Shown here: positions 23,970-38,572 of the stretch, piece by piece
Numbering within the stretch: the stretch's first letter is position 1
Layout of the letters: every line of letters starts with the position of its first letter
From: a virus
Length of the DNA: 64,000 nucleotides
Reading direction: 5' to 3' (one strand)
Virus record (IMG/VR): IMGVR_UViG_3300025087_000037
Span: 1 to 64,000 of that record
Program-made: the position numbers and the translations under genes
The notes under the pieces: model-generated
Seen by the model: the letters and a program-made list of their open reading frames with translations, nothing else
What the model was told of the DNA's origin: nothing
Database searches by the model: none

Positions 23970-24061
23970 AGTTTGAGGGGCTATAGAAATTAGGCGACGT
24001 TTAAGCACAGAGTATATGAATTTTCTCGAAAGTCATTTCTTTCTCCTAGTTTTTTAGTTTT

Positions 24062-24137
24062 TGGTGGAAGCAAAGAGATTTGAACTCTTATCTTTCGCCT
24101 TGCAAAAGCGATGCTTTCCCTATTAAGCTATGCCCCC
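24062..24137 (-). tRNA. tRNA-Ala (TGC)
   Basis: Acceptor GGGGGCA/TGCTTCC (two G-U pairs), anticodon stem TCGCT/GGCGA with loop TTTGCAA giving TGC, T-arm AGAG-TTCAAAT-CTCT, encoded ACCA. Confidence 0.92.
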
Positions 24138-24144
24138 TAATAAT

Positions 24145-24360
24145 TTAAATAATAGCCTCTATAATATTATTTAGTTCTTTTAGTCTATTTCCTTTTGAAT
24201 GACCTAAATGCCATTTCTTACAAAAAGCACATTTATAAACGCTAACAGAAATTTGTTTCTCAAATTTTAATTCTTTTCGAGCTTTTAAGGCGATGTCTTC
24301 ATTGCTATATTTATGTTTAAATCGACATTGATTTCTCTTAAGTCTTCGTTTACTTGACAA
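24145..24360 (-). CDS. Small zinc-binding-like protein
   Basis: The 71-residue basic product has a helical N-terminus and a single C-x2-C followed by two histidines (YKCAFCKKWHLGHSKG), a plausible zinc site. The start is taken as TTG at 24360, 12 bases after AAGGAGG; the distance is long, so the start is uncertain. Function unknown; a nucleic-acid-binding role is possible. Confidence 0.6.
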   Translation of the reverse strand: MSSKRRLKRNQCRFKHKYSNEDIALKARKELKFEKQISVSVYKCAFCKKWHLGHSKGNRLKELNNIIEAII

Positions 24361-24397
24361 TTCAAATTTTATCCTCCTTTCTTTTTTAATTTGTTCA

Positions 24398-24781
24398 TTA
24401 TAATAATTTTAAATTCTTTGTTATTTTATCAATATCTTCAGATTTAGCTGGCCCAATAGCAATACATGTTTCTGTTGGAATTCCATGAAATTCTGTTAAG
24501 CCTGCATCAATTATTAAAGATGCTGGAAACCCGTTATCCAAAGCTTTTTGATATATCTCTAATAATTCTTCTTTTGAATTGACTTGCAAACAAATTTTTG
24601 TAAAAAGTCCATTTAACCATTCTGAAATGTTTTCATCCAATTCTAATGTCCAATTGTCATTATTTATTTTTGACATTTTATCTAATAAAATTTTCATTGA
24701 CGCATGTGCGCCTTGAGCGATCATTTTTCCTTTTCTCATATTTAAATCTGTTCTCATTAATATAACTTGTTTAACCTTCAT
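24398..24781 (-). CDS. pth2: Peptidyl-tRNA hydrolase, type 2 (Pth2)
   Basis: The 127-residue product has the full Pth2 signature: KQVILMRTDLNMRKGKMIAQGAHAS at the N-terminus, KICLQVNSKEELLEIYQKA, then LIIDAGLTEFHGIPTETCIAIGP. Pth2 releases stalled peptidyl-tRNAs and is typical of archaea and eukaryotes, scattered in bacteria and phages. It overlaps the phosphatase gene by 11 bases and lies in the tRNA region, which fits a role in sustaining translation alongside the phage tRNAs and tmRNA. Confidence 0.9.
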   Translation of the reverse strand: MKVKQVILMRTDLNMRKGKMIAQGAHASMKILLDKMSKINNDNWTLELDENISEWLNGLFTKICLQVNSKEELLEIYQKALDNGFPASLIIDAGLTEFHGIPTETCIAIGPAKSEDIDKITKNLKLL

Positions 24782-25535
24782 ATTTTTCTTTCATTTCTTT
24801 TAAAAGTTCTAATTCATTGGCTATTTTTTCTATTTGAATCACCTTCATTGATGGCAAAACTATACAAGATAATTTCCCACCCATATCTAAATATGCGGCT
24901 CCGGTATCTATACCAATTTTTCCATATTTAACATAAATGTCAGATATATATTTTCCTTCAAAAAATGGTGTATGTCCAAACACAATTGTTTTACCAAAAT
25001 TTGAAAAATCTTTATATAAAAATAAATCTCGAATCCAAAGGATTTCAGTGTAAAATGGTTTTTCAGCACTGGGATCTATTGTGGTTACAATTTCTTCTAA
25101 ATCAAGATCTTCAAATTTAGGATTTGGATTTTTTACCATATTAATTCCGCCATGAATAAAGAAATAATTTTCAGTTACATAAAACTTTTTAAGTTTATTT
25201 TTAATAAATTCAATGTGTTCATCAGGAATTTTATGGTTATAACTTTTAATAGTTTGATATCCGCCATTATATATAAACACTCCTTCATCAATACCCATCA
25301 TATAATTATTAAACATTTCTTCATGATTTCCCATCAAAGGAATGACAGAATTGGGATATTTTGAAACTAGACTTATAATATAAGAAATAACTTTATTCGA
25401 GTCTGGGCCTCGATCAATATAATCTCCGATAAAAATCAATTGATCTTTTTCATAATCAATTTCTTTTTCTATTTTTGCCATCAAAGATATTAACATATCA
25501 TATTGACCATGTATATCTCCGATTACATAGTACAT
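24771..25535 (-). CDS. Calcineurin-like phosphatase (lambda PP / PrpE type)
   Basis: The 254-residue protein has all metal-site motifs of the PPP family: GDIHGQYD, GDYIDRGPDS, GNHE, HGG and GHTPF, with a final GIDTGAAY. Members act as Ser/Thr protein phosphatases or as diadenosine tetraphosphatases; the sequence does not separate these. It overlaps pth2, indicating coupled translation. Phage members can reverse host phosphorylation. Confidence 0.88.
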   Translation of the reverse strand: MYYVIGDIHGQYDMLISLMAKIEKEIDYEKDQLIFIGDYIDRGPDSNKVISYIISLVSKYPNSVIPLMGNHEEMFNNYMMGIDEGVFIYNGGYQTIKSYNHKIPDEHIEFIKNKLKKFYVTENYFFIHGGINMVKNPNPKFEDLDLEEIVTTIDPSAEKPFYTEILWIRDLFLYKDFSNFGKTIVFGHTPFFEGKYISDIYVKYGKIGIDTGAAYLDMGGKLSCIVLPSMKVIQIEKIANELELLKEMKEKYEG

Positions 25536-25556
25536 ATCTTTTCTCCTTTCAAAAAT

Positions 25557-25745
25557 CTAACTATCAATATATTCTTCATCAAAAGATTCATCCCATAATT
25601 GAATTTCTTTTAAACAATCATCACATGTGATCATTTCATATCCGTCTCTACCGCCTTTAAATTTAACTATTTTTCCACAATTAACACATTTAAATTTATT
25701 TTCATCTATCCTATGTTTTTCTAATTCTTCAAAAGAAATAGTCAT
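25557..25745 (-). CDS. Small zinc-ribbon protein
   Basis: The 62-residue product carries CVNC and CDDC separated by about 19 residues (FKCVNCGKIVKF...MITCDDCLKEI), a treble-clef or ribbon zinc site, and an acidic tail. Its ATG overlaps the stop of the preceding small gene (ATGA). Function unknown. Confidence 0.65.
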   Translation of the reverse strand: MTISFEELEKHRIDENKFKCVNCGKIVKFKGGRDGYEMITCDDCLKEIQLWDESFDEEYIDS

Positions 25746-25912
25746 TTTATCCTCATTTCCTTTATTGGAAATAAATAAACAGTTAGTTTTGGGGTTGGAT
25801 CAGTATTTAAAACTGCATCTTGAATTACAAACCATTTGCCTTCCTTTTTTATTTTATTTCCAACTATATCAAGGGGTGATTTCCATGATAAACCTTCTTT
25901 TTCTTTAGCCAT
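25742..25912 (-). CDS. Small hypothetical protein (56 residues)
   Basis: ATG at 25912 has AGAGGG 8 bases upstream, and the frame ends in an ATGA overlap with the zinc-ribbon gene. The product contains LSWKSPLDIVGNKIKKEGKW and a strand-rich second half. The family is unknown. Confidence 0.6.
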   Translation of the reverse strand: MAKEKEGLSWKSPLDIVGNKIKKEGKWFVIQDAVLNTDPTPKLTVYLFPIKEMRIK

Positions 25913-25944
25913 GTAAAACCCTCTTGAGAAAGAGTTTTATTTTT

Positions 25945-25981
25945 AGGCTGGCTCTAGTCATAAGTCGACTAGAGCCAGCCT
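25945..25981. terminator. Hairpin between TAXI-type gene and zinc-ribbon unit
   Basis: AGGCTGGCTCTAGTC (25945-25959) pairs with GACTAGAGCCAGCCT (25967-25981) across 7 bases. It lies 27 bases after the stop of the minus-strand TAXI-type gene; the T-run is on the plus-strand side, so termination direction is uncertain. Confidence 0.65.
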
Positions 25982-26007
25982 TTATTAATTGATCAGTATT
26001 TTAAATT

Positions 26008-26964
26008 CTACTTCAAAGGAACCTCATATTTGATCCAAGAAACTTTTTCAGGGTCTTCCACCTCTTGCCAAGCTGGGTGGGATGCCCTATCTTCTTTAAT
26101 TTCTTCGAGATTCTCAATGATTGCATTCTTTAGAGCAATTAGATCTGCTGCTCTTTTTCCTTTATAATTCCATACAAACAGTTCATTTTGAACAGACAAA
26201 CAGGGAAGCCCAAACAGTCCCAAATTTTTGTAAGAGACTTTTGTCGGAATATAAAAATTTCCCAGTCTTTGAATATCAGAAGGATCAAAAGCTGCAAGGT
26301 TAAACATTTTTCCATCGAGTTTTTCTACCCACGAAAGAGGTTTTCCACCCATAGCCAAAAAGGCGACAACCTCATTGTTTTGGAGTTTTGAAATTCCCTC
26401 TTCAGGTTTGAAAACCTCAATAGCGTCAATGCTTAGCTGAAGACGTTCATTTATAATTGTCGAAGTGGGAAGTGCGCTTCCAAGAACCGCCACTTTCTTT
26501 CCACGGAGATCTCTCATGTCTACAATGATTTGCCTTTGTTCTTTCGAGGATCCATAACCAAGGAACCCTTCAGAACCTTCCTTCAAAAGAATTCCATTTC
26601 TAAGAACAATAATGTGCATTGTATTTGCATGAAGTGACATGAGAGACCTAATATTTTTTGTTACCATTGAATCGGTTCTTTGAACAATATCAATGGTATC
26701 GGACTGTGCAAGACCAACGTCTGCATTTCTTCGAAGAATATTTAGAATATTATCAAATCCACCTGTCGTATTTGAATTCTCGCATAAATTAGGATAATAA
26801 GCGGAAATATTTTTAAACATCTTTGCATATGTATTTTGAGGATTTCCAGTCGAAAAAATCAAATAATTATCGGGGCATGTTTCTGATGGCTCAGTGGCGA
26901 AGCAATAAAAAGGATTAATCAAAAAAGAGATTAGGATGAGAAAACCCAGAACCCAACGTTTCAT
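26008..26964 (-). CDS. TAXI-type periplasmic solute-binding protein
   Basis: The 318-residue product begins with a signal peptide (MKRWVLGFLILISFLINPFYCFA). It continues with the TAXI-family pattern LIFSTGNPQNTYAKMFKNIS, then NTTGGFDNILNILRRNADVGLAQSD and later LRGKKVAVLGSALPTSTII. Such proteins bind small organic anions for TRAP transporters. No TRAP membrane subunits are visible; the next upstream genes are two membrane proteins of unknown type. A binding protein of this kind is unexpected in a phage. It may sense or sequester a periplasmic ligand. Confidence 0.78.
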   Translation of the reverse strand: MKRWVLGFLILISFLINPFYCFATEPSETCPDNYLIFSTGNPQNTYAKMFKNISAYYPNLCENSNTTGGFDNILNILRRNADVGLAQSDTIDIVQRTDSMVTKNIRSLMSLHANTMHIIVLRNGILLKEGSEGFLGYGSSKEQRQIIVDMRDLRGKKVAVLGSALPTSTIINERLQLSIDAIEVFKPEEGISKLQNNEVVAFLAMGGKPLSWVEKLDGKMFNLAAFDPSDIQRLGNFYIPTKVSYKNLGLFGLPCLSVQNELFVWNYKGKRAADLIALKNAIIENLEEIKEDRASHPAWQEVEDPEKVSWIKYEVPLK

Positions 26965-27004
26965 GAAAACTCCTTTTCTCCGGATATCAGTGATTTATAT
27001 AATT

Positions 27005-27172
27005 CTATTTATAAAACTTAGGTCCATTATTTATGGGTTGAGATTGTGTAATATTTTCCTCAGAATAAATTTCATTATTTATTGATTTTGTTTTCATGGA
27101 TCCAAAAATTACAATTCCTATGAGAAATATCATGAGAATCAGGCCTACGATTTTAATAACCTTGTAGTACAT
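27005..27172 (-). CDS. Small single-pass membrane protein (55 residues)
   Basis: ATG at 27172 follows GGAGGG by 3 bases. Residues 5-24 form a transmembrane helix (VIKIVGLILMIFLIGIVIFG), and the rest is a polar tail. It sits between the coiled-coil membrane protein and the TAXI-type gene in one transcript. Its role is unknown, but co-location suggests an envelope complex. Confidence 0.65.
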   Translation of the reverse strand: MYYKVIKIVGLILMIFLIGIVIFGSMKTKSINNEIYSEENITQSQPINNGPKFYK

Positions 27173-27195
27173 TCGCCCTCCTGGAAAAGATGATT

Positions 27196-27924
27196 CTATT
27201 CTCCAGTATTTTCTACCAATAGTTCAGTTTTTGCATGCCTAATAAATTCTCCGTCAATTTCCAAATCTGCAAATGCCCTATCAAAATTTTCCGAAATTGC
27301 ATTGGAGGCTTCTTCAGCCAATAGGTCTCTGGTAATTGTTTCTTTATCAGTTGACGAAACACTCGAAAGTGCATCAGCGCTAGCAATGGCGAATTCTTGT
27401 TGAAATTTTTGTCTTTCTACCTCATTTTTAAATTCAATTAGGGCTTCTTCAAATTTCTTTAGCTTAGCACTTTGCATCTCAAAGAGTTTTCTCATTTTCT
27501 CAAGGGCTTGACGTTCCTTACTCAAATTACAATTGGGATCTCTTTTTTCTCTTTCTTCAATAAGTCTTTGTAATCCCTGAACTTTTGAAAAAAGGACTTT
27601 TGTTCCATTTTTAAATATCGCTACATGTTCTGACCGTGCGATAATGGTATTTTCCAATTGTTCAATCGGGTTTTGTCTTGCTTCAACTTTTCTCATTTTA
27701 ATAATCCAGTTTTCTAATTTTTGTCCCATAAGAGGAATTGTCATAACCACTCCAGTTCCAACAATTCCGATGGCTCCAATTGCAAAGAGACTGACTGCTG
27801 CAACTAGAGCATTATAAATAATAAATGAAAAACCGGCTAAAGCGCCAACCATTGTCAAACCAGTTAATGTTTTGATAGCTACAGCCTTTTTATTTATAGA
27901 TACTTGTGGGAGATGAGGGGTCAT
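27196..27924 (-). CDS. Membrane-anchored coiled-coil protein
   Basis: The 242-residue product has two hydrophobic segments between about residues 16 and 68 (LTGLTMVGALAGFSFIIYNALVAAV, then the IGAIGIVGTGVVMTIPL region). A long charged coiled coil of about 110 residues follows, reminiscent in style of PspA-like proteins though I claim no homology. It heads the membrane/TAXI group on the minus strand. Function unknown; a membrane-stress or scaffold role is possible. Confidence 0.6.
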   Translation of the reverse strand: MTPHLPQVSINKKAVAIKTLTGLTMVGALAGFSFIIYNALVAAVSLFAIGAIGIVGTGVVMTIPLMGQKLENWIIKMRKVEARQNPIEQLENTIIARSEHVAIFKNGTKVLFSKVQGLQRLIEEREKRDPNCNLSKERQALEKMRKLFEMQSAKLKKFEEALIEFKNEVERQKFQQEFAIASADALSSVSSTDKETITRDLLAEEASNAISENFDRAFADLEIDGEFIRHAKTELLVENTGE

Positions 27925-28026
27925 CCTTCATTCCTTTGACGGGATTTATTAGGGGAGAATTTATTTCACTCTTAATTTTTTTAATGTCTTTAAAATTAAA
28001 TATAATCGGAGGATTTAATTCAATCT

Positions 28027-28266
28027 TCAAAGTTTTTCTCGAGGAAAAATTTCAGTGAAAAATCTAAATTTTTTAAAGTCTTCATGAAGAGAGTCATAAC
28101 ATCCATTTATAGTATAAATGAACAATTTATCTTTTTCTTCTAAAGGAATAATTCTTTTTACAAAAACCCAATTAGATTCATTTGTATCTTCATCCGTTTC
28201 TAGATAAAGAATACTATACTTTTTATTAAAAGAATCTAAAATATATTTTACTTGTTCTTTTGTCAT
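28027..28266 (-). CDS. Hypothetical protein
   Basis: The 79-residue product starts MTKEQVKYILDSFNKKY; the longer in-frame extension runs through tRNA-Leu and is rejected. Its ATG overlaps the stop of the tiny membrane gene upstream (ATGA). Mixed strand and helix pattern; family unknown. Confidence 0.6.
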   Translation of the reverse strand: MTKEQVKYILDSFNKKYSILYLETDEDTNESNWVFVKRIIPLEEKDKLFIYTINGCYDSLHEDFKKFRFFTEIFPREKL

Positions 28267-28340
28267 TTGGTTTTCGTTCCTAAATAACCAGCTAAAATAA
28301 CTATTGCTACAATCGCTAAAAGAATTAATCCAAAAGCCAT
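28263..28340 (-). CDS. Tiny membrane protein (25 residues)
   Basis: ATG at 28340 is preceded by GAAAGGAACGA. The product, MAFGLILLAIVAIVILAGY plus GTKTK, is one transmembrane helix with a basic end. The stop overlaps the next start (ATGA). The size is below usual thresholds, but the ribosome-binding site, overlap and composition make it credible. Confidence 0.55.
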   Translation of the reverse strand: MAFGLILLAIVAIVILAGYLGTKTK

Positions 28341-28367
28341 TCGTTCCTTTCCTTTCTAGATATTTTT

Positions 28368-28457
28368 TGGTGCCGAGGACGGGAGTCGAACCCGTACAGG
28401 GATTTCTCCACCGAGGGATTTTAAGTCCCTTGCGTCTACCAGTTCCGCCACCCCGGC
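28368..28457 (-). tRNA. tRNA-Leu (TAA)
   Basis: A class II tRNA: acceptor GCCGGGG/CCTCGGC with ACCA encoded, D-arm GGCGGAACTGGTAGACGC, anticodon stem AGGGA/TCCCT with loop CTTAAAA giving TAA, long variable arm, T-arm ACGGG-TTCGACT-CCCGT. Confidence 0.95.
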
Positions 28458-28476
28458 ACAAGATTATATTAGACTT

Positions 28477-29808
28477 TTAACAGATTGAATTGAAAAAGGT
28501 TTTATCTATATGTTTAGGGCCAAAAGATAATATTTTGATAGGAACTTCAGTTTCTTCTCTTATAAATCTAAAAAATTTACTTTCCCATCCCCTTCCTTGA
28601 AAAGTTTCATAAGAGGGTTTAACAAAAGGTAAATATTTTGTAAGAAAGTTCTCTTCTGAAAGATCATATATTTCATTAGATTGAATATATTCGAAAAACA
28701 ATTTATCTATATTTTTTAGTTCATCAAAAACATAATTTGTACAAACCTTTATTTTATCCATTTTATTAAGAAGATCAATATGGGTCAAAGCAATTCCATC
28801 TAAACCATTCGAAATATTTAAAGAATATTTCAAAGCAACTAAATCTAAATGTCCAATTCTAAATTTTCCCTGCCATCCATTATTTACATTATGTTTATCA
28901 AAAAATCTTAGAGATTCATCTTCTGTAATTAATGGGCCATTACCATGTCTTGTGGTAAAAATTCTTGAAATGCCAATCATTTGAATATTTTCAATATCTT
29001 TAAAATCTATCGGATTAATGGCAACATGTCTTTTTGTTACATATGGCAAGACCCCATATCTTGGGTCAAGAAGATTTCCTTGGGAGCTCTCAAAGATTAT
29101 AACATCATTTGAAATTTCATCGAGCTTTTCAAAAGGAAGATTATGAACATGACTTTCAATATATACTTTAAATTTTTTATATTCAGAATGTAAAAATTTA
29201 ATATATTTTTTATTTATAAAAGTACTAATAATTTTATCTTCTCGTATTGAAGAAGGAAATTCATCTAACAATTCATTTAAAATAAAATTGATTTTATCAA
29301 GCAAATATTTATCAGGTTTAAATAAATCAATGACTTTCAAAGTTGGGATATTTTTTTGTTTAGACCTTACATATTCTCCAACTCCAGCACCGCATGTGCT
29401 AAATTTTTTAACCCTATCATATTCTCTTTTTCTGCCGAATAAAACATGAAAAGGAAGAATCAATTCACAATTTTCATGGATATCTATTCTTTCCCAAATA
29501 TTTCTCGTTTTTGTATTTAATACTTTCGCTTCTTCCATCATAGTCAAAGGGTCAAAAACCATATCTTCTGAATAAACGGTATTTGACTTTAAGTTTGATA
29601 AAGAATTGGAACCGAAGTGACTAAAACAATGATGAATATTTTTATTTATAACATTATGAGCGGCTTGATGTGCTCCATTAAATCGAATAGCTGTTGAAGG
29701 CCCAAACTTATGTCCAAGGGCATCAATAATACTTCCTTTTCCTTCATCTCCATAATTTAAGCCGAAAATCAAAAAACATTTTTTTCCTTTAAATATTTTA
29801 TTATTCAT
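28477..29808 (-). CDS. Adenylosuccinate synthetase (PurA)-like protein
   Basis: The 443-residue protein keeps the PurA core: FGLNYGDEGKGSIID with the catalytic Asp at residue 21, FNGAHQAAHNV with His51, then FESSQGNLLDPRYGVLPYVT, TTRHGNGPLITEDESL and IGHLDLVALKYSLNI. PurA joins IMP and aspartate using GTP. Phage PurZ relatives act on dGMP in the 2-aminoadenine pathway but usually lose this Asp, which is retained here as in PurZ0-type enzymes. No DatZ, MazZ or family A polymerase is visible, so a Z-genome is not supported. It overlaps the PK-like gene by 8 bases. The substrate is unknown. Confidence 0.82.
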   Translation of the reverse strand: MNNKIFKGKKCFLIFGLNYGDEGKGSIIDALGHKFGPSTAIRFNGAHQAAHNVINKNIHHCFSHFGSNSLSNLKSNTVYSEDMVFDPLTMMEEAKVLNTKTRNIWERIDIHENCELILPFHVLFGRKREYDRVKKFSTCGAGVGEYVRSKQKNIPTLKVIDLFKPDKYLLDKINFILNELLDEFPSSIREDKIISTFINKKYIKFLHSEYKKFKVYIESHVHNLPFEKLDEISNDVIIFESSQGNLLDPRYGVLPYVTKRHVAINPIDFKDIENIQMIGISRIFTTRHGNGPLITEDESLRFFDKHNVNNGWQGKFRIGHLDLVALKYSLNISNGLDGIALTHIDLLNKMDKIKVCTNYVFDELKNIDKLFFEYIQSNEIYDLSEENFLTKYLPFVKPSYETFQGRGWESKFFRFIREETEVPIKILSFGPKHIDKTFFNSIC

Positions 29809-30709
29809 TTTTATATTCAGGATTGAAAGGATATATATAGTTTGGAGTGATTACCGCTTTATGAGATATTTCATCCCCCAAAAGAAAATTTTTATAACCA
29901 AGAGATTTCATAAATTTTATATCCATAAAATTAGCCATATTATTTGGTTCTACATCTAAAGGAAGGTCTGTCGCTAAAATAGCTTCAGGATCCTTTTTAA
30001 TAATAAAGTCTAAATAAAGGGTGAAGAAATTTATATCATTTAATGAATTTATAAATAAATCTTGCCTCGCTGCCATCAAATTACATTTTAAATCAGAAAG
30101 ATTTTTAGGGCTTATGGTTGTCAAAAGACGAAGCCCTTCCATTGATTCGATTTTTAATATAAGATTAGATTCTGGATAAAGATCTCTTATTATCTGCAGA
30201 TCTTCATATTTTTCAAAAAAGGAAATCATAAAATTCTGACAAGAAAACTCTTTACAAGCCTTAATAAATTCTAAATCTTCATTAGTTAAAAACCCGTCAA
30301 CCTTTAAATTTTTTCCAATGATATTAACTGATTGCCCTTTTCCTACAGCATACCTCGGAATAGGGTCAACAAAAATTTTATTTCCAACTATTGATTTAAT
30401 TTCACTTGGTTCAGAAGAACCTCTGAAATATATTGTAGCGGGGAGATCAACTTTTACATTATGATTTAATAATATATCTCCATATTTTGGAAACGCCCAT
30501 TCAAGAATTCTTAATTGCCTTCCTTTAAGATCAACCCATAAATTTTTATCAAATCTTATGCATTCTCGTGTCAAAAATTCTATTGTTTTAAAAGGAGTTA
30601 GATCCGAAGTACATCCGGTATTATATCTAACATTTTTAATTTTTTCATTTTTTAAAATATCATAAAGAATTTTTGTTTGATATATTGGAGGTAAAGTACA
30701 ATATAGCAA
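29801..30709 (-). CDS. Pyruvate-kinase-like TIM-barrel protein
   Basis: The 302-residue protein resembles the pyruvate kinase/HpcH barrel. It has an N-terminal CTLPP strand, LWVDLKGRQLRI (compare the DLKGPEIR loop), a beta-domain-like middle, LTNEDLEFIKACKEFSCQNFMISF, LILKIESMEGLRLL (the catalytic Lys-Ile-Glu strand) and NLMAARQDLFI (compare ARGDLG). It lacks the C-terminal allosteric domain of true pyruvate kinase. A TTG start at 30709 is used. Overlap with the PurA-like gene indicates joint action, perhaps synthesis of a nucleotide-like metabolite, which is inference. Confidence 0.72.
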   Translation of the reverse strand: MLYCTLPPIYQTKILYDILKNEKIKNVRYNTGCTSDLTPFKTIEFLTRECIRFDKNLWVDLKGRQLRILEWAFPKYGDILLNHNVKVDLPATIYFRGSSEPSEIKSIVGNKIFVDPIPRYAVGKGQSVNIIGKNLKVDGFLTNEDLEFIKACKEFSCQNFMISFFEKYEDLQIIRDLYPESNLILKIESMEGLRLLTTISPKNLSDLKCNLMAARQDLFINSLNDINFFTLYLDFIIKKDPEAILATDLPLDVEPNNMANFMDIKFMKSLGYKNFLLGDEISHKAVITPNYIYPFNPEYKNE

Positions 30710-30710
30710 T

Positions 30711-31676
30711 TTATAATTTTCTTATAGAACTTTTTCTAGAAATATTTGATTGTTCAGGAAGTTTATTTATAGGAACCGAGGGAACTAATGATCTACAAAA
30801 TTCTCCAAGACTATTAGAAACATTTTCAATTCTTTCATTTGTTTGTTTTCTATTTTTCATATCATCAATATAACTTGACATATCTCTTGAATTATAAGCC
30901 ATGGCTATAATTCCCAAAATAATATCGATCACAGATTTTTCTTCTTTTAGAAGAATAATATTTTGAGAAGGAAGCATTGCTTTCCAAGAGCGAATAATAC
31001 TTTCTTCAAAATCAAATCCCTGATATTTATTTAACAAAACAAAAACATTATTTTTAAATTTTTTCATAAGTTTCGTAAATATTGTTTTTGAGGGGATTTC
31101 ATTGTTAAGGGTAATATTTAAGATTGATGAACTTATTCTATTTGTTAAATATGAATATGGACTTTCATCAGCGAGAAAGAAAAAGAATGGAAATACATCT
31201 TTATGGGTTAATTTACATTTTTCATTAAAGTACTCAGCAGCCAATTCATAAGTTTCCGTTTGTTGCCCACCACCACTTCCCTCTAGATATAATTTTTCAA
31301 TCCATTTTTCATTTTCAATTCCATAAGCAAAATCAGAAATTTGTAAAGGGGCTGAATCACAATATGCATCTCCAACTGCGGAGAAGGAAAGTTCAAATTC
31401 ATCTTTTGGCAAATAACCTTGTTGTTCAATTTGTCCATGTAACATTGGGGCCTTGTCATAAAATACCTTTGCAAAATTTATATTTGATCCCGTAACGTCA
31501 AGCATCAATACAATTGGATGTTTAGCCGAACATACAATATTTCTTTTTGGGTCTAAATCTTTATGTAATTCCTCAGATTTAAAAATTGTATTGGAAACTG
31601 TTGAGGCCATACCACTGCCAAAATTGGAAGATGACCTACTGCCATAGACAGGTCTGTCATATGATGAGCCGCCCAT
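30711..31676 (-). CDS. VWA-domain protein of the signalling cluster
   Basis: The 321-residue product has a Gly/Ser-rich N-terminus and then a VWA domain with MIDAS-like D60-V-T-G-S64 (PIVLMLDVTGSNINFAK). FSAVGDAYCDSAPLQISDF and EGSGGGQQTETYELAAEYF follow, a pattern I have seen in VWA proteins paired with kinases and AAA ATPases. It lies one base from the pseudokinase and one from the PK-like gene, so all are one operon. It probably acts as the metal-dependent adaptor of the complex. Confidence 0.78.
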   Translation of the reverse strand: MGGSSYDRPVYGSRSSSNFGSGMASTVSNTIFKSEELHKDLDPKRNIVCSAKHPIVLMLDVTGSNINFAKVFYDKAPMLHGQIEQQGYLPKDEFELSFSAVGDAYCDSAPLQISDFAYGIENEKWIEKLYLEGSGGGQQTETYELAAEYFNEKCKLTHKDVFPFFFFLADESPYSYLTNRISSSILNITLNNEIPSKTIFTKLMKKFKNNVFVLLNKYQGFDFEESIIRSWKAMLPSQNIILLKEEKSVIDIILGIIAMAYNSRDMSSYIDDMKNRKQTNERIENVSNSLGEFCRSLVPSVPINKLPEQSNISRKSSIRKL

Positions 31677-31677
31677 T

Positions 31678-32769
31678 TCATATTCCCTTCCCTGGAACTT
31701 TATCTAAGAAATCTCTAAAACGATCTGGTCCAAAATATTTGGTTCTAATTTTTTCTAATTTTTCCCATTCTTGAAAACAATCATCAGATCTTTTTTTAGG
31801 ATTTGACTCAACCATTTTTTGAATTAGAGAATCAAAATCTGGATAATCTTTTATATTTTTTTGATAATTATTTTCATTGTTTCCTGACAACAAATATATC
31901 ATAGATTTTCCTATTGAGAATAAATCAGTTCTTGGATGGGGTGAAAGGTCTTTAGTTATTTCTGGAGCTGAAAAATCATTTAATAAACTATATTTTGCAT
32001 CATTTGAATTAGCATCTTGGATCGCTCCGCAAAAATCAATTATGGTTACGTTATGATTATAATGGGTTACAATTAAATTTGAAGGTTCAATGAGGCCATG
32101 AATAATTAATTTTGAATGTAAATTACCACAGGCTGATAAAATTCTTTCAAGTATCCATACAGCATTCGAAACAGAAATTCCTTCAGTATAAAAATTTTGT
32201 AAAGTACAAAAATCAAACCCCTCAATATATTTAGTTACATTGGCTAAAGAATCATCTGAAAATTTAAAATGATCTAAATAAACAGGAAATGACAATGGGT
32301 TTAAATTTTTTTGAATATGTATTAACATTTCTTTTTCATGTAAAATTAAATCATTGGAATCTTTTGAAACCTTCATACAAACTTTTATTTTTGCTCCGGT
32401 GTGATATTCTCGATCACATAAATAAATATTTGAGAAATCTCCTTCTATCATATGTTTTAAAATATGATAAGTTTTATCATTTATTTTAAATATACTTTCA
32501 TTTTTATCCATTCGTTTAAAAGGAATATTATTATCGAGACAAAAAAGTACAAGGTCTTTTAATTCAGTTAAATGTCTAAATGCTTCATTTGACAATTCTT
32601 GTTCTTTACTTGTCATAGGATTACATTTATCTGGATGGAGAATAAACAAAAATGATCGATAGCACGAAATAATTTCTTTTTTGCCTTGATAAAGTATCCC
32701 ACCAAAAAGATCTTTTGGATCAATGATTTTTAAAATTTTTTCACAAAAATCTTTTTGTTCTTGATCCAA
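31678..32769 (-). CDS. J-domain / protein-kinase-like fusion (probable pseudokinase)
   Basis: The 363-residue protein has an N-terminal J-like domain with YRSFLFILHPDKCN (H45-P46-D47). A kinase-like domain of about 95-345 follows: glycine-loop region near 106-118, VAIK-type Lys133, Glu145, and DFC at 245-247 in place of DFG. The catalytic loop reads HGLIEPSN (224-231), so the HRD aspartate and the following lysine are replaced. Catalysis is therefore doubtful and a pseudokinase or scaffold role is likely. The HPD suggests recruitment of an Hsp70. It is 3 bases from the AAA ATPase gene. Confidence 0.8.
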   Translation of the reverse strand: MDQEQKDFCEKILKIIDPKDLFGGILYQGKKEIISCYRSFLFILHPDKCNPMTSKEQELSNEAFRHLTELKDLVLFCLDNNIPFKRMDKNESIFKINDKTYHILKHMIEGDFSNIYLCDREYHTGAKIKVCMKVSKDSNDLILHEKEMLIHIQKNLNPLSFPVYLDHFKFSDDSLANVTKYIEGFDFCTLQNFYTEGISVSNAVWILERILSACGNLHSKLIIHGLIEPSNLIVTHYNHNVTIIDFCGAIQDANSNDAKYSLLNDFSAPEITKDLSPHPRTDLFSIGKSMIYLLSGNNENNYQKNIKDYPDFDSLIQKMVESNPKKRSDDCFQEWEKLEKIRTKYFGPDRFRDFLDKVPGKGI

Positions 32770-32772
32770 GTC

Positions 32773-34083
32773 TTATATCTTCTCCTTCCAAAATAGATTC
32801 AAGGCTAAAGTTGAACATCTCTCTTGAAATTGTGCTCCGGTATCTCCATCTCCATCTTGAACTATTTTATTTATTTCATCAGGAAAATCAGAAAGGATTC
32901 TTTCAGCGATTTCTAATCTACATTTTTCATCAAGAATTGTTAAATGAATAATTCTATCTATTCTTCCGGGCCTTATTGTCATTTTTCCATTTGAGACTTT
33001 TGAAGCGATTGCGTCATCTAAATGATCTATATTATTTGTAGTTATGAAAGTTAAAATTCCATTTGAATTATAAATTCCATCTATGCAATTTAATAGACAA
33101 TCAAATGAAAGAGGTTTTTTTAACATGTCTTGTTTTGATATATTTTCTCTTTTTTTGAACGTTGCGTCAATATCTTCAAAAAGTGCAATACAAGGAGAAT
33201 TAGAAAGCATTTCATTCCAATTTGTTATAAGCTCTTCATTTGATAAAGTTGATAAATCAAAAGACCAAATGGGAAAATCAAATTCTTGCCCAAGAGAACG
33301 AACTAAAGATGTTTTTCCTGTTCCGGGCAAACCATATAATAATATTCCTCTTTTCCAAGGAATTCCTTTTTCTTTAAACCAATCTCTACTTTCTTTCCAT
33401 GTTTTTATTTCGTTAATAATATTTTTTATTTCTTCAGGAAACGCCAAATTTTTTATTGGTGTATTATGAATTGAAGAAGTTATATCATCGAGATCAAAAT
33501 TAAGTATTCTTTTTGATCTAAAAAAATATGAATCTTGTGAAAAATCTATATTATTTTGATTCGGTTGAGAACGCTCAATTGAAGGAGATTTCCCCATTAC
33601 TCTGGTTACAAAAAACCTTTGAGGAAAATTGCCCGCATTGTCATTAAATTCTTTTACTATTTCAGAAATAAATTTATCTGGATCTAAAGTTCCCCTTAAA
33701 AAAGTTATAGTAAAAGAAATGTTATATTCTTCATTTCTAATATGTTTTTGTACTCCATTTATAAATAAAATTTTAAATCCATTTCTAAATATTAAATTAG
33801 GAGCATTAATTTTTTGATAAGAAACGAGAACATTTCTATCTTTTGATTTAGAAAATGTGAAAACAGAATTATAAGTTTTATTTAAGATTTTTAAAGGCTT
33901 ATAATTTTTTAGTATATTTGAGATTGCTAAATCTATTAAATTATTATTTTCAATTTTTACTGTCACAAAAATTAAACTAAATAAATGTTGAAGAATGGTT
34001 TTCACTTTTTCCCAAAATGCTGCAATGAAGCCGGCTGCGGCACCTCCCAATAAGATAGAACTTCCTGAAAGATTTTCTAGCAT
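32773..34083 (-). CDS. BCS1-like AAA ATPase, membrane-anchored
   Basis: The 436-residue protein has an N-terminal Gly-rich hydrophobic segment (about 9-24) and a second (33-42), a beta-rich linker domain, and a BCS1-type AAA module. The module comprises Walker A GLPGTGKT (251-258), Walker B LFEDID (301-306), sensor 1 TTN (348-350) and RPGRID (371-376) with the arginine finger. All ATPase residues are present. BCS1-like proteins translocate or remodel folded proteins at membranes. It likely drives the AAA/pseudokinase/VWA assembly. ATG 34083 follows GGAG. Confidence 0.88.
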   Translation of the reverse strand: MLENLSGSSILLGGAAAGFIAAFWEKVKTILQHLFSLIFVTVKIENNNLIDLAISNILKNYKPLKILNKTYNSVFTFSKSKDRNVLVSYQKINAPNLIFRNGFKILFINGVQKHIRNEEYNISFTITFLRGTLDPDKFISEIVKEFNDNAGNFPQRFFVTRVMGKSPSIERSQPNQNNIDFSQDSYFFRSKRILNFDLDDITSSIHNTPIKNLAFPEEIKNIINEIKTWKESRDWFKEKGIPWKRGILLYGLPGTGKTSLVRSLGQEFDFPIWSFDLSTLSNEELITNWNEMLSNSPCIALFEDIDATFKKRENISKQDMLKKPLSFDCLLNCIDGIYNSNGILTFITTNNIDHLDDAIASKVSNGKMTIRPGRIDRIIHLTILDEKCRLEIAERILSDFPDEINKIVQDGDGDTGAQFQERCSTLALNLFWKEKI

Positions 34084-34107
34084 CTTTTCTCCTTAACCTG
34101 GTCTGGA

Positions 34108-34143
34108 GGGGCCCCTCATGAGAAAAGTCTCACAAGGGGCCCC
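34108..34143. terminator. GC-rich hairpin upstream of AAA gene
   Basis: GGGGCCCCT (34108-34116) pairs with AGGGGCCCC (34135-34143), with an inner AGA/TCT pairing. It lies 25 bases before the AAA ATPase start on the minus strand. It may attenuate or protect the downstream message. Confidence 0.7.
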
Positions 34144-34150
34144 ATACAAT

Positions 34151-34264
34151 TCAACGGAAAAACAAACTAATAATTCCATCTAAAATATCTGGTTCTTTTA
34201 TGAGAAGAATGAAACAGAAAAACGAAATCCAAGATATAGTTCTAAAAAATAAATATTTTGTCAT
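34151..34264 (-). CDS. Tiny membrane protein (37 residues)
   Basis: ATG at 34264 has AAGGAT upstream. The product reads MTKYLFFRTISWISFFCFIL then LIKEPDILDGIISLFFR, one hydrophobic helix with a short tail. It lies between the coiled-coil genes and the AAA gene, which is itself membrane-anchored. Function unknown. Confidence 0.5.
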   Translation of the reverse strand: MTKYLFFRTISWISFFCFILLIKEPDILDGIISLFFR

Positions 34265-34310
34265 TTTAATCCTTTCTATGGATTTATCTCATTCTTTATA
34301 ATTTTTAGAC

Positions 34311-34976
34311 TTAAAACATTCTTTCAAATTCTTCATAACTTTTATCAAATAATAAAAAACATGCTTTATCAATTTCGGAAATATTTTTATCAAAACGAGG
34401 AATTGAAGGAAGGATCTTATTTTCTTCTAAATTTTTAAAATCTATTAAATTATTCAAAAACTTTTTTCTAATGCTATCCAATAAAATATCAAAACAAATT
34501 TTTGTTATTTTAGTTCCAAGAATTACTAACAAGTCTTCAAAATCTTGAGTATTTTTCTCTATTTTATTTAAGGACGCTTCAATATTTTTCTTATATTCGT
34601 CCAATGCTTTATCAAAAATAATACTTTCATTTTCATCAATTTTATAATCTAATTCTTTTACAACGTTTTTAGCAAATTCTAACCATCCACCATTTATACG
34701 TTTTTGTTTATGTAATTTTATTTGTTTATCTTCAATATCATTATACTTTTGGAAAATTGCACAAAATTCTTCAATTGTTCTCCTTAGAGAATCTCTCATT
34801 GACAGTGATGCAAATTTATTTCCATAAATAAATTGAATTTTTTTGATTGAAAATTCACAATTAAACTTATCTAATTCTGAATCTGTTATATTTAAGGAAT
34901 CAAAAAAAGAACTTATATCTATTTCAATAAAATGACTCGTAAAAAATTTTGAGATAGAATCCGAAAATAATTTCAT
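34311..34976 (-). CDS. Helical protein, paralogue of the 35988-36824 product
   Basis: The 221-residue helical product shares two segments with the 278-residue protein two genes upstream. One is an N-terminal FF-x-S...KFN-x-(E/D)FSI...I pattern; the other is a LLVILGTKITKICFDILL segment matching LLNILGANISNLCYKLLL. It overlaps the TelA-like gene (ATGA). Its role is unknown; duplication suggests hetero-oligomer partners in the signalling complex. Confidence 0.65.
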   Translation of the reverse strand: MKLFSDSISKFFTSHFIEIDISSFFDSLNITDSELDKFNCEFSIKKIQFIYGNKFASLSMRDSLRRTIEEFCAIFQKYNDIEDKQIKLHKQKRINGGWLEFAKNVVKELDYKIDENESIIFDKALDEYKKNIEASLNKIEKNTQDFEDLLVILGTKITKICFDILLDSIRKKFLNNLIDFKNLEENKILPSIPRFDKNISEIDKACFLLFDKSYEEFERMF

Positions 34977-35971
34977 TCAATAAATCTTGTATCAGATGTG
35001 CTTCCCATTAATTTAGGTAATTCTTTTCTTAACCGAGCATCTTCCGCAATAACTTTATTTGCGGTTTCGATACATTTTGCTCTTCCGTTTTCGACAGCAG
35101 CTTTTACCCCTTCCAGAAGTTTTATTGTGGATATTGAAACTTGTCCAATTGTTTCAGGAAATATATCCGGAGACGATACCATTTCAGTGACTCTTTTTGT
35201 ATCCGATGCGATTGTTTGGCTGCATTGAACGACAAGAGAATTTAATCCATTTCTAACCGAAGTGACTTTCTCACTTGTTAAAGCGTTTCCTAATTGCATG
35301 ATATATGTGGATAATTCGGTTTTAATTAGAACATTTAATTGAGGATAGGTATTTTCGATAAAATCTAAGAGAAGTTCAATTTCTGTTATTTGCCCTCCTA
35401 GATGAATAATATTATTTTTAAAAATAAAAAGAAATGAATCAATATTTACAAGAGTTTTCTTCAACTTATCTAACATTTTTGAATTATCATTTATATTATT
35501 TTCAATATTATCTGATTTATTATTTTGGACGTTTTCAATTTCTTTTGATATATCTTTTCTTAAAATATTCAATTCTGAAACTATCTGTTCTGCTTTTGAC
35601 CCATAACTATAACAAGTTTCCATTTTAGCTTTAAGTTTGATAGCGTCTTCATCAAATGATTTTTTGATATCTTCCAAAACATCGCTGACCATTTTTCTAT
35701 CAGTTATTTTTGAAACAATGGAACGTTTTGTTTTTTGATAAAATTTATCTATAAATGAAGGAAGAAATTTCGTTTTTTGATCCTTGAGGTTTTCAATGCA
35801 GGAATTCATTCTTTCTATTGTATTTTTCATGTCTTCTAAATCAGCCATATTTGTATTGGCTAAAATTCCATCACTAATTTTTGTCGCCTCTTGAAAAATT
35901 ACAGAAATTCTTTCTTTGACTGAAGTATATGCATCGTTGGGGCGAACATAAGAAAAAAGCTGACCCGGCAT
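34973..35971 (-). CDS. Long coiled-coil protein, weakly TelA-like
   Basis: The 332-residue product is helical almost throughout. The C-terminal part (SISTIKLLEGVKAAVENGRAK followed by CIETANKVIAEDARLRKELPKL) recalls the late repeat of TelA/KlaA toxic-anion-resistance proteins; I rate this as weak. TelA proteins occur with VWA and kinase genes in tellurite-resistance-type neighbourhoods, which fits the genes downstream. It is flanked by two paralogous helical proteins. Confidence 0.6.
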   Translation of the reverse strand: MPGQLFSYVRPNDAYTSVKERISVIFQEATKISDGILANTNMADLEDMKNTIERMNSCIENLKDQKTKFLPSFIDKFYQKTKRSIVSKITDRKMVSDVLEDIKKSFDEDAIKLKAKMETCYSYGSKAEQIVSELNILRKDISKEIENVQNNKSDNIENNINDNSKMLDKLKKTLVNIDSFLFIFKNNIIHLGGQITEIELLLDFIENTYPQLNVLIKTELSTYIMQLGNALTSEKVTSVRNGLNSLVVQCSQTIASDTKRVTEMVSSPDIFPETIGQVSISTIKLLEGVKAAVENGRAKCIETANKVIAEDARLRKELPKLMGSTSDTRFIE

Positions 35972-35987
35972 GTTTAGTTTCTCTTTC

Positions 35988-36824
35988 TTATGAGATATTC
36001 AGTATTTCTAATTCATCTTTTCCTGCATGCCAAGAACAACATTCAGGAAAATCTACAATAAATTCTCCATCAGATGAACGTTCTTTAATATATCCAATGC
36101 TTTCTGGTGTGACACTTCCCCAACTGTATCTTGGGGTAATTCCTTTTTTGACTTTTACGGCTGTTCCTTTATCTAAATAAAATCCTAAACATTGAAAACA
36201 ATGTTCTATAAATCCATCTGAATAATATTTTGTATTTACATAAATTTTTTCTCCATCTTTGAACTTAATTAATATATCCATATGTAATTGACCTAAAAAA
36301 TGCAATAATAATTTATAACACAGATTTGAAATATTAGCCCCTAAAATGTTTAATAAGTTTTTTGTTTCTTTTATGTTTTCAGATAATTTATCAACAATAA
36401 TACCATAATTATTTTCAACATCTAAATAAGATTTTTGAAATAATTTTTTATCATCTTTTTCTTTTTCATTAATCATATCTGAGCCGATTAATATTTCTAA
36501 TTTTTCTGTCATGTCATTGATTACTTTTAAAGTAATTTTTGTTTTTCCTATATATTCACATAAATCATCTTGTTCTTTTTGTAGTTTTGTAAATGTTGAA
36601 TATATCCTTAAAAACTCATTGCAACTTTTTAAAATATCTGTTTTATAAATTTCACCTTGATATTTTTTCTGACTTAACAATTGTTTTATTTGCTCTATTG
36701 AAAAATCTGAATTAAATTTTTTTATAGTATCCGTATCAATTGATTTGAAAAAATCTAATGATTCTCCATCTAATTTATTTTTCTTTTTAAATATTTTCTT
36801 ATAAAAAGGTGTGTTAACTGACAT
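35988..36824 (-). CDS. Helical protein with C-terminal beta domain
   Basis: The 278-residue product has a helical part (1-190) paralogous to the 34311-34976 product. Its C-terminal domain of about 80 residues contains ITPRYSWGSVTPESIGYIKE and GEFIVDFPECCSWHAGKDELEI, a pattern like MIB/HERC2 or Mind-bomb-type beta domains. It is the first large gene of the signalling block. Its ATG overlaps the end of the preceding small gene. Confidence 0.65.
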   Translation of the reverse strand: MSVNTPFYKKIFKKKNKLDGESLDFFKSIDTDTIKKFNSDFSIEQIKQLLSQKKYQGEIYKTDILKSCNEFLRIYSTFTKLQKEQDDLCEYIGKTKITLKVINDMTEKLEILIGSDMINEKEKDDKKLFQKSYLDVENNYGIIVDKLSENIKETKNLLNILGANISNLCYKLLLHFLGQLHMDILIKFKDGEKIYVNTKYYSDGFIEHCFQCLGFYLDKGTAVKVKKGITPRYSWGSVTPESIGYIKERSSDGEFIVDFPECCSWHAGKDELEILNIS

Positions 36825-36978
36825 TTGAAAATTTAATCAACACACTTTCTTTTAATTTCATTATATCTTTTTTGACAAATAAACAATAATAATCACAAAT
36901 CCTTATTAAAATACATTGTTTACAGTTTAAAAATTTTTTTCCATAATAATGAAAAATCATAGGATTTAAGTCAAACAT
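36814..36978 (-). CDS. Small cysteine-motif protein (54 residues)
   Basis: ATG at 36978 opens a 54-residue frame containing CKQCILIRICDYYC, a C-x2-C-x5-C-x3-C motif also present at 39083-39490 and 40453-40779. It overlaps the next start by 11 bases. No clear ribosome-binding site is seen; the shared motif is the main support. Confidence 0.5.
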   Translation of the reverse strand: MFDLNPMIFHYYGKKFLNCKQCILIRICDYYCLFVKKDIMKLKESVLIKFSNVS

Positions 36979-36993
36979 AATAAATTTGGGCGA

Positions 36994-37341
36994 TTAATCT
37001 TTTTCAACTTTATATCCTTCTTTAGGAATATTATATGTTTGATATTTTATAATTTTTGTCATTCCACAATGTTCACAAGTTGATGTCTCAACTTCTTCTT
37101 TTATTTCTAATTCAACATAATTATATCCGTGTCCTGTTTCTGGATCATTTCCGTTTGTTAAATCCACTGAATTCCACCAGACCATTTCTTCATCACAAAT
37201 TGGACACTTCCATTTCTCTTGTAAAGGAATTTCATCATCCACCCAAGAATAATTTCCAGTTGGATTTTTTGGATCAAAAGAGTCAAATGAAAATTGATGA
37301 CCATTTTTACAAAGTATTTGATCATAACCTTCATAGGACAT
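36994..37341 (-). CDS. Zinc-ribbon protein
   Basis: The 115-residue acidic product has three cysteine groups: an N-terminal CKNGH, a central CPICDEEMVWW and a late CEHCGMTK, enough for at least one zinc site. GAAAGGAAA precedes the ATG at 37341. The family is unknown; it adjoins tRNA-Pro. Confidence 0.6.
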   Translation of the reverse strand: MSYEGYDQILCKNGHQFSFDSFDPKNPTGNYSWVDDEIPLQEKWKCPICDEEMVWWNSVDLTNGNDPETGHGYNYVELEIKEEVETSTCEHCGMTKIIKYQTYNIPKEGYKVEKD

Positions 37342-37404
37342 ATTTGGCGTTTCCTTTCAGAGTTTTTGAGTTCAATTAATATTTTTATTTTAAGATGAAA
37401 AGGT

Positions 37405-37481
37405 TGGTCAGGGCGAGAGGATTTGAACCTCCGACATCCAGCTCCCAAAGCTGGCGCGCTACCAGACTGCGCTACGCCCTG
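37405..37481 (-). tRNA. tRNA-Pro (TGG)
   Basis: Acceptor CAGGGCG/CGCCCTG with ACCA encoded, anticodon stem CCAGC/GCTGG with loop TTTGGGA giving TGG, T-arm GGAGG-TTCAAAT-CCTCT. Confidence 0.95.
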
Positions 37482-37489
37482 ACTTGAAA

Positions 37490-37789
37490 CTATTTACTTA
37501 GAGACTTTATTTTCGATTCTTTCCATTCAAAAAGTTTTTCACCACTTTCACTTTGAAGACAGAAGAAATACATTGGGCCGTTAGACCATGGAGTACATTG
37601 AACTATTTCTTTTATAATTATGCCAGTTTTTGTTTTATATTGTTTTAGACATGGACACCATCCCATATCATTCTCAGTTGGTTGATTATAAATTGTTCCT
37701 ATTGGGGTTCCTTTTTTATCTAAATTACAGTTTGTTTTTAACCATTCCTTTGCTTTTTTAGTCAACCCAACTTCCTGGTATGATCTCAT
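37490..37789 (-). CDS. Hypothetical protein
   Basis: The 99-residue product has a possible metal-binding WCPCLKQYK and a strand-rich C-terminal half. AAGGAG lies upstream of ATG 37789. The family is not recognised. Confidence 0.6.
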   Translation of the reverse strand: MRSYQEVGLTKKAKEWLKTNCNLDKKGTPIGTIYNQPTENDMGWCPCLKQYKTKTGIIIKEIVQCTPWSNGPMYFFCLQSESGEKLFEWKESKIKSLSK

Positions 37790-37873
37790 GAAACTCCTTG
37801 GAGAGGGATTGGATTGAATGGATTGATTGTGAGATTAGAAATTTACAAAGATGACATGAAAATTAAAAATATT

Positions 37874-38169
37874 TGGCGCGCTCGGAAAGATTCGAACTTT
37901 CGACCTACAGCTTCATACCACTACGGCTTTCACCGCCAATTAGAAATTGTTTGTGGTCTGGACTTTGCCTTTACCATGCGCAAATATTGCGTTTAGGTAC
38001 CCCCCGTCAAGTCTCTACACCTTCCCAAAAATCTTGGGCTTGGCTCGGCGTTACCATCGACTTTACGTTAAGGATTCACCGAGTTTGAGGGAATTCGACA
38101 TTGAGTTTCCTCAATGAAGTCCAATAGTTACATAGAAGGCTGTTGCTCTATCCGCTGAGCTACGAGCGC
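37874..38169 (-). tRNA. tRNA-Arg (TCT) split by a group I intron
   Basis: The 5' exon (38134-38169) begins GCGCTCGTAGCTCAGCGGAT and ends ...ACAGCCTTCT. The 3' exon (37874-37913) is AAGCTGT...TTCGAATCTTTCCGAGCGCGCCA. Joined they make a 76-base tRNA with acceptor GCGCTCG/CGAGCGC, discriminator G, encoded CCA, and anticodon stem ACAGC/GCTGT with loop CTTCTAA giving TCT. The interruption falls directly after the third anticodon base. Confidence 0.9.
37914..38133 (-). ncRNA. Group I self-splicing intron (220 bases)
   Basis: The insert follows a U-ending 5' exon and ends with G, as group I chemistry requires. Recognisable core segments in order are ACTCGGTGAATCC (P-like), TAACGCCGAGCCAAGCC (Q-like), GTGTAGAGACTTGACGG (R-like) and AAGGCAAAGTCCAGACCAC (S-like). 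A P2-like hairpin CATTGAG-GAAA-CTCAATG sits near the 5' end. No endonuclease frame is present. The small plus-strand frames over it are shadows. Confidence 0.85.
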
Positions 38170-38210
38170 GTGATTTATTCTTTATTTTATCACTTTAATA
38201 ATTTTCTCTC

Positions 38211-38558
38211 CTAAGAAATTAATTCTTGTTCAATTTCTCTGACCAATCTCAAAAGATTATTTTTTCGGGTAATAGAAGTATTATATTCCCACAATATACC
38301 TCTAGTGCTTACTAATGCATGAATTGTCGCTAATTCATCATTTGAGGTAAAAGTCCAAATCCAATTTCGATGAGAATAATTTTTTGTCGTATATTGTTTT
38401 CCAAATTTGTTTTTAAAATATTCTTTATTTTTTAAATCTTTTACCCTCTCATGATATTTTTTAATGAAATCGATGTTATTATAGAAAAAACATTCTCTTA
38501 AAACATTACTTAAGGGATCGGTATTATTCTCATCATATGTAACTAAGTTGATTTTCAT
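38211..38558 (-). CDS. Hypothetical protein
   Basis: The 115-residue product begins MKINLVTYDENNTDPLSNVL. ATG 38558 has AAAGGAAA upstream and is preferred to the longer frame from 38594, which overlaps the preceding gene. It contains SHRNWIWTFTSNDELATIHALVS; the family is unknown. Confidence 0.6.
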   Translation of the reverse strand: MKINLVTYDENNTDPLSNVLRECFFYNNIDFIKKYHERVKDLKNKEYFKNKFGKQYTTKNYSHRNWIWTFTSNDELATIHALVSTRGILWEYNTSITRKNNLLRLVREIEQELIS

Positions 38559-38572
38559 ATAATATTTTCCTT

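Follow-up and report, generated by a model that had tools for sequence, protein, structure and literature searches.

A stretch of 64,000 nucleotides, covering bases 1-64000 of a virus record 139,369 bases long (IMG/VR record IMGVR_UViG_3300025087_000037) and hereafter called the window, carries on its minus strand a group of genes that, judged from sequence and gene neighbourhoods, almost certainly forms a real, conserved and mobile cassette. The cassette joins a protein with a J-domain-like N terminus and a protein-kinase fold (JK), a protein with a von Willebrand factor A (VWA) fold, and a metabolic enzyme that is either a pyruvate-kinase-family barrel (PKb) or a divergent PurA-like enzyme. 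The record belongs to a tailed phage, with genes for a portal protein, a major head protein, a DNA polymerase and a DnaB-like helicase. An initial annotation of the window had described ten minus-strand genes, all of which are present where it placed them, as one signalling and metabolite cluster recalling the tellurite-resistance (Ter) systems. The genes of the cassette proper are the following.

31678-32769, minus strand: JK, J-domain-like N terminus and protein-kinase fold (Pfam Pkinase 1.5e-14)
30711-31676, minus strand: VWA-fold protein, the core gene of the cassette (phrog_2971, AlphaFold, Foldseek and a 22-row alignment)
29801-30709, minus strand: PKb, pyruvate-kinase-family barrel (Pfam, profile to PDB and Foldseek)
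28477-29808, minus strand: PurA-like enzyme from a divergent subfamily specific to the cassette (Pfam 2.8e-58 and an active-site table)

Contig scans led by VWA, PKb or PurA yielded 132 non-redundant viral loci. The enzyme near the VWA gene is PurA in 117 of these, PKb in 12, both in the window only, and neither in two, one of which (L058) encodes a cassette-type PurA at another place in the genome. A JK gene lies within 6 kb in 91/132. Retrieval led by PurA recovers VWA in 77 of 80 cases, the three misses starting near a contig end, and retrieval led by PKb recovers both JK and VWA in 12 of 12. The strands of VWA and enzyme agree in 86/86 cases among the first 89 loci, and the enzyme begins no more than 300 bases after VWA in 72 of the 86. 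The first VWA homologues came from cluster C mycobacteriophages and a 485-kb uncultured phage. Mycobacteriophage LinStu has the kinase (gp257), VWA (gp258), a small gene and PurA (gp260) in that order, and LR745208 has J-kinase, VWA and PKb. Other neighbour genes mostly differ between loci, and identities to the window proteins are often 20-30%. Because the neighbours are mostly unshared, the cassette is not explained by simple relatedness among phages. We found no paper on this gene combination in the open-access full-text literature.

The J domain of the window JK is a weak match (Pfam 0.043) that has the HPD motif; in relatives the domain is clear (Pfam DnaJ 1e-14 in L003 and 9e-9 in L024) and HPD is conserved, so that the J-domain call of the initial annotation stands for the family and is faint in the window itself. 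The window kinase is catalytically dead, with the motifs HGLIEPSN and DFC and the catalytic Asp lost, and domain searches detected no C-terminal domain on this protein. For the window VWA protein, no Pfam family passes and a profile search against PDB sequences gave nothing meaningful, while PHROG returned a match of 3e-29 to phrog_2971 (function unknown). Its AlphaFold model, built from 46 sequences, has a mean predicted local distance difference test score of 86.5, and Foldseek ranks integrin beta-I and vWF A domains highest in the PDB (probability 1.00). Every row of the 22-row alignment has the DxTGS motif and a C-terminal Asp. The VWA call is thus sound by structure, though Pfam does not see the domain in the window protein. 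At window 6901-7542, a position unrelated to the cassette, there is another, canonical VWA-domain gene (PF00092, just over the cut-off).

The barrel was correctly called as pyruvate-kinase-like by the initial annotation, which had named this call as one whose failure would count against its proposal. The window PKb matches Pfam at 2e-4 as a single protein, and 6 of 7 members of the family match the pyruvate kinase model. A seven-row profile matches PDB pyruvate kinases (best 7e-12), and all of the top 50 Foldseek matches to the structural model are pyruvate kinases (50/50). A C-C lyase (CitE) identity was set aside since the profile indicates pyruvate kinase instead. Alignment with E. coli PykF reveals that the R..N, DxKG..R, KIE and AR.D motifs are kept, and the Arg, Asn, Asp, Lys, Glu and Asp residues of the phosphoenolpyruvate site are retained, with ARQD in place of ARGD in the window. 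Unlike true pyruvate kinases, with which they share the barrel fold and the phosphoenolpyruvate and phosphate residues, the PKb proteins have VWA and JK partners and a shortened B region, and they lack the C-terminal (allosteric) domain; the window protein, at 302 amino acids, stops after the barrel.

The PurA-like assignment is certain, and the pseudokinase and AAA calls are likewise confirmed. Cassette enzymes of this type belong to the fold family of PurA and PurZ/PurZ0 and keep the P-loop and general acid; in the active-site table, the residues corresponding to Asp13, Lys16, His41 and Gln224 of PurA are present in 71/71. However, the acceptor loop differs from that of PurA. Across the 71 sequences, the aspartate-binding residues Thr300, Thr301, Arg303 and Arg305 are replaced by W/F/Y, Q, a gap and F/L, respectively. 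Position 301 is Gln in 69/71, both Arg303 and Arg305 are lost, and Lys331 is Cys or His. Neither these enzymes nor the PKb proteins reach the curated cut-offs (NCBIfam purA, PurZ; pyruvate kinase). PurZ makes 2-aminoadenine for phage DNA, and every phage PurZ has Ser in place of the catalytic Asp13 (PMC12884076). Given that all 71 cassette enzymes have Asp at this position, we rejected PurZ-type synthesis of 2-aminoadenine. By the same reasoning, the annotation of LinStu gp260 (L002:12412-13740) as a 2-aminooxy adenylosuccinate synthetase is probably wrong, as this protein keeps the catalytic Asp that is absent from PurZ. Cassette PurA proteins are also set apart from PurA, PurZ and PurZ0 by being almost always encoded beside VWA.

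The two enzymes replace each other. PKb is absent from 29 of 29 PurA-type phage records, where positive controls were detected in 6/6, and PurA is absent from 13 of 13 PKb-type records searched, while two other records gave matches; some of these 29 and 13 records are possibly incomplete. The state of the kinase follows the enzyme: at PKb loci the HGDxKPxN and DFG/DYG motifs are kept in 12/12, whereas at viral PurA loci the catalytic Asp of the kinase is lost in 49/49 (Fisher p 6e-13 for 12 PKb and 49 PurA loci), a p value that overstates the number of independent events, because PKb forms a single clade and the 61 loci are not independent. The VWA and JK partners of PKb form one clade (100/100) in each tree, both trees being unrooted. 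For VWA, the window branches next to the PKb clade together with L028, a PurA-only locus in which JK was not detected (14 rows, 100/100). For JK, the window again appears as sister of that clade (93/98), on a long branch. Among the 132 loci, the window is the only one to carry both enzymes, and its kinase is dead. Of the near-invariant positions, 24 of 25 are retained in its PurA and only 33 of 65 in its PKb, which suggests that PurA is the working enzyme and that the locus records a change of type. The plainest reading of these sequences and unrooted trees is that the window would represent an intermediate stage in the exchange of enzymes, PurA being the one under constraint at present. Several phages also have, downstream of the PKb cassette, a gene for a Thg1-type tRNA-His guanylyltransferase (L003:16156-17049, L005:10237-11022 and L038:9096-9920).

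Although the initial annotation correctly placed its cluster in a phage, the cassette is not restricted to phages; as the JK-VWA-PurA triad it also resides in the chromosomes of soil bacteria, namely actinobacteria, beside an NrtR-like regulator. A bacterial genome scan with a seven-row VWA alignment found at least 558 relatives, and the best 80 of these, to which the neighbourhood counts refer, are all actinobacterial and in many cases lie on large chromosomal contigs. PurA adjoins VWA in 78/80, JK is detected in 59/80, and an NrtR-like Nudix/winged-helix gene lies no more than 3 kb away in 75/80; an adenine-phosphoribosyltransferase-like gene is near seven loci. Every bacterial JK is a pseudokinase (59/59), and nearly all keep HPD. 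Five cassette-bearing actinobacterial genomes contain no PKb, only genes of pyruvate-kinase length (housekeeping). Exactly one cassette copy is present in 76 of 151 Micromonosporaceae genomes, and an even sample across the phylum has the cassette in 2 of 297. Around the bacterial copy, several Micromonospora loci agree in gene order.

A link to nicotinamide adenine dinucleotide (NAD+) is found in phages as well. NAMPT is near the cassette in 9/132 viral loci and NrtR-like matches are near it in 7/132. Large phages (L042, L051, L052, L053, L221 and L260) have NrtR-like and NAMPT genes in a row with VWA, PurA and JK, and in L221 and L278 NAMPT sits between VWA and PurA. Ten of 22 cassette phage records have a gene of the NAMPT/NAPRTase family. 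In L003, an ADP-ribosylglycohydrolase gene (18867-20051) lies 4 kb downstream of the cassette. NrtR relatives have been reported to sense ADP-ribose, and for ADP-ribose systems it has been proposed that vWA domains serve as Mg-dependent chaperones that bind peptides (PMC9503650). Bacteria are also reported to use NAD+ depletion as a defence, which phages counter (PMC12774641). The cassette resembles the NrtR-regulated systems in pairing an NrtR-type Nudix regulator with VWA, and it resembles phage NAD+ salvage or reconstitution in having NAMPT beside some phage copies. However, the published ADP-ribose (PMC9503650) and phage NAD+ systems are without the PurA/PKb enzyme or the J-pseudokinase.

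Given these neighbourhoods, we tentatively favour, at somewhat under even confidence, the reading that the cassette is a chaperone-linked, VWA-scaffolded metabolic module that would sustain adenylate and NAD+ pools. The J domain would recruit Hsp70/DnaK, and the retention of HPD in proteins with a dead kinase suggests that DnaK recruitment is the constant job of JK. VWA would be the constant scaffold, its metal site used for peptide binding, and together JK and VWA might fold, assemble or switch the enzyme that accompanies them. This enzyme would then be the variable working part, acting on adenine-nucleotide supply: the PurA type could activate a purine nucleotide on the way to adenosine monophosphate or a related product substituted at N6; the PK type could move phosphate between phosphoenolpyruvate and a nucleotide. 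The kinase domain might be a mere binding module in PurA cassettes and still be able to phosphorylate in PK cassettes. In bacteria, NrtR, as an ADP-ribose-type sensor, would turn on the operon in response to disturbed NAD+ metabolism, and phages would carry the cassette to keep adenylate and NAD+ pools up during infection. We infer that adenylate and NAD+ supply is the common denominator of PurA, PK, the adenine phosphoribosyltransferase, NAMPT and NrtR.

Several observations weigh against this reading. No JK is detectable within 6 kb in 41/132 viral loci, and among phages lacking JK a J protein elsewhere in the genome gave only weak partial matches (2/17). Other families stand directly upstream of VWA in such VWA-PurA loci (L100:5654-5998, L072:5389-5997 and similar), namely a coiled-coil protein of 115-130 amino acids or a protein of about 200. 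The replaced acceptor loop means that the PurA-like enzyme may not make adenylosuccinate. Because the PKb loci make up one clade, their match with active kinase may reflect just one evolutionary event. The 139-kb record of the window has no NAMPT, so the NAD+ link is indirect for this phage. Moreover, NAMPT is common in large phages, and its adjacency is seen in just 9/132 loci. NrtR-family ligands vary, with AraR, for example, sensing sugar. Finally, binding among JK, VWA and enzyme, like DnaK recruitment, is projected from sequence.

Given the presence of VWA and a kinase, a signalling or defence function resembling TerY-P is the likeliest competing explanation, in which VWA and kinase form a phosphorylation or binding switch against competing phages, the enzyme makes a nucleotide signal, and phages use the system for superinfection exclusion or to imitate host systems as a decoy. 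TerY-P is an antiphage triad of the VWA protein TerY, a PP2C phosphatase and a Ser/Thr kinase (PMC7699616; PMC11090510), and the cassette likewise has VWA and protein-kinase-fold genes side by side, the VWA protein being recognized by its fold. Its kinase also resembles the PADLOC defence kinases PD-T4-6 and MAD6, dead kinase domains are known from conflict systems (PMC7159879), and one copy per genome in about half of the sampled Micromonosporaceae is a distribution that would suit defence. Nevertheless, PP2C (PF13672) is absent from the record of the window and from most cassette phages, and elsewhere is present but not adjacent. The TerY-P kinase carries a C-terminal Zn ribbon or OB fold, whereas the cassette JK carries an N-terminal J domain, is mostly dead and has a near-constant metabolic enzyme as partner. 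Membership of TerY-P was rejected on these grounds, as there is neither PP2C nor an active Zn-ribbon/OB kinase. Furthermore, a nuclease or other effector was not seen alongside, the gene order shared among Micromonospora loci is unlike a defence island, and PADLOC has no match for VWA, PKb or PurA. We consider this explanation unlikely; the anti-defence and superinfection roles suggested by the initial annotation remain conjectural. Identity with the Ter systems themselves did not hold either. The resemblance consists of VWA, a nucleotide-enzyme theme and, in the window only, a weak TelA-like neighbour, but Pfam finds no TerB, TerC, TerD or Ter-type biosynthesis domain in the ten proteins, and the TelA-like gene never accompanies the cassette elsewhere, unlike the TerB/C/D/F, TelA and phosphoribosyltransferase/HAD biosynthesis sets of true Ter systems. 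What does find support is the broader notion that a VWA/kinase module has a tie to nucleotide metabolism, and the cassette works somewhat like VWA/kinase signalling modules.

A reading in which the divergent PurA couples an activated purine to some amine other than aspartate, yielding a modified DNA precursor or signal nucleotide, with VWA and JK as assembly factors, is rather improbable. The activation residues are kept and the acceptor loop is replaced in 71/71, as this would predict, and the related PurZ provides a precedent; yet the retained catalytic Asp contrasts with the Ser of every phage PurZ (PMC12884076), the PK-like swap fits poorly, and no polymerase gene is among the recurrent neighbours of the bacterial operon. 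A role in virion assembly, with VWA and the J protein as chaperones of structural proteins and the enzyme gene as a passenger, seems quite improbable. MoxR-vWA pairs and DnaJ proteins have been proposed as assembly chaperones in jumbo phages (PMC7824862), and the LinStu cassette follows lysis genes. However, no partner is more constant than the enzyme, JK is missing from some loci, and the same triad is present on bacterial chromosomes. Chance association or shared descent among closely related phages, which could draw on the single clade of PKb cassettes, is exceedingly improbable in view of the same neighbourhood being retrieved by three different genes, the differing neighbour genes, the low identities and the bacterial chromosomal copies.

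We think it possible, with slightly less confidence than in the module reading, that the cassette represents an undescribed type of system. In such a system, an Hsp70-linked J-(pseudo)kinase and VWA would form a control unit plugged onto interchangeable metabolic enzymes, with the kinase kept or lost to suit the enzyme; actinobacteria, using an ADP-ribose-type repressor, and phages would use it to defend or reset adenylate and NAD+ pools, and the phage of the window would be a living intermediate. The exchange of PurA and PKb, two unrelated enzymes, in step with kinase loss or retention offers a natural experiment on the role of the regulators. Should the NAD+/adenylate reading be true, a regulated metabolic arm would be added to the phage-host contest over NAD+ and ATP. 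In addition, a gene family of about 189 sequenced mycobacteriophages, labelled hypothetical or given the probably wrong name of 2-amino adenylosuccinate synthetase, is now part of a cassette common to actinobacterial chromosomes.

Other genes of the reported cluster are listed here.

35988-36824, minus strand: CC278, a coiled-coil gene
34311-34976, minus strand: CC221, a coiled-coil gene and paralogue of CC278
32773-34083, minus strand: AAA ATPase (Pfam AAA 4e-17)
28368-28457: tRNA-Leu gene inside the reported cluster

The initial annotation had treated the whole row as a unit. The J/pseudokinase, VWA, PK-like and PurA-like genes do recur across phages, but the AAA, TelA-like, paralogous coiled-coil and TAXI genes accompany the cassette in 1/132 loci, the window itself, and the ten-gene cluster was rejected as a unit for this reason. 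Co-occurrence of at least four families, proposed there as a check, is confined to the window (JK, VWA, PKb and PurA) since at other loci one of PKb and PurA stands in for the other; three families co-occur widely. Tight packing holds for AAA-JK-VWA-PKb-PurA, with gaps of 3, 1 and 1 nucleotides and an 8-nucleotide overlap of PKb and PurA, but not for the entire span. A 227-nucleotide gap lies between the coiled-coil/TelA genes and AAA, and PurA is parted from the membrane coiled-coil and TAXI genes by tRNA-Leu and about 550 nucleotides. AAA, 3 nucleotides upstream of JK, is probably co-transcribed with the cassette in the window, yet is outside the conserved unit. A promoter and terminator scan gave nothing better than shuffled sequences. 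The TelA-like (3e-5) and TAXI (2e-5) calls correspond to weak matches, both under the Pfam cut-off; TelA identity was not accepted, since an unrelated coiled-coil family equals its score. The membrane coiled-coil protein is near the cassette in 3/132 loci (window 27196-27924, L038:2042-2854 and L245:10671-11309) and has weak similarity to the defence protein DruC.

Several other features of the window deserve mention. Seven tRNA genes are dispersed among the minus-strand genes at 22982-41644, and beside tRNA genes the overlapping genes for a PTH2 peptidyl-tRNA hydrolase and a calcineurin-type phosphoesterase are found at 24398-25535. A long portal-protein gene (15103-18447) includes an HNH-endonuclease-like stretch, perhaps an intein. 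The row at 7545-11266 comprises a thymidylate-synthase-like gene, one further gene, a queuosine-salvage-family gene (Pfam 1e-18) and a weak tRNA-guanine-transglycosylase-like gene, and might be a set for queuosine/7-deazaguanine or nucleotide modification.

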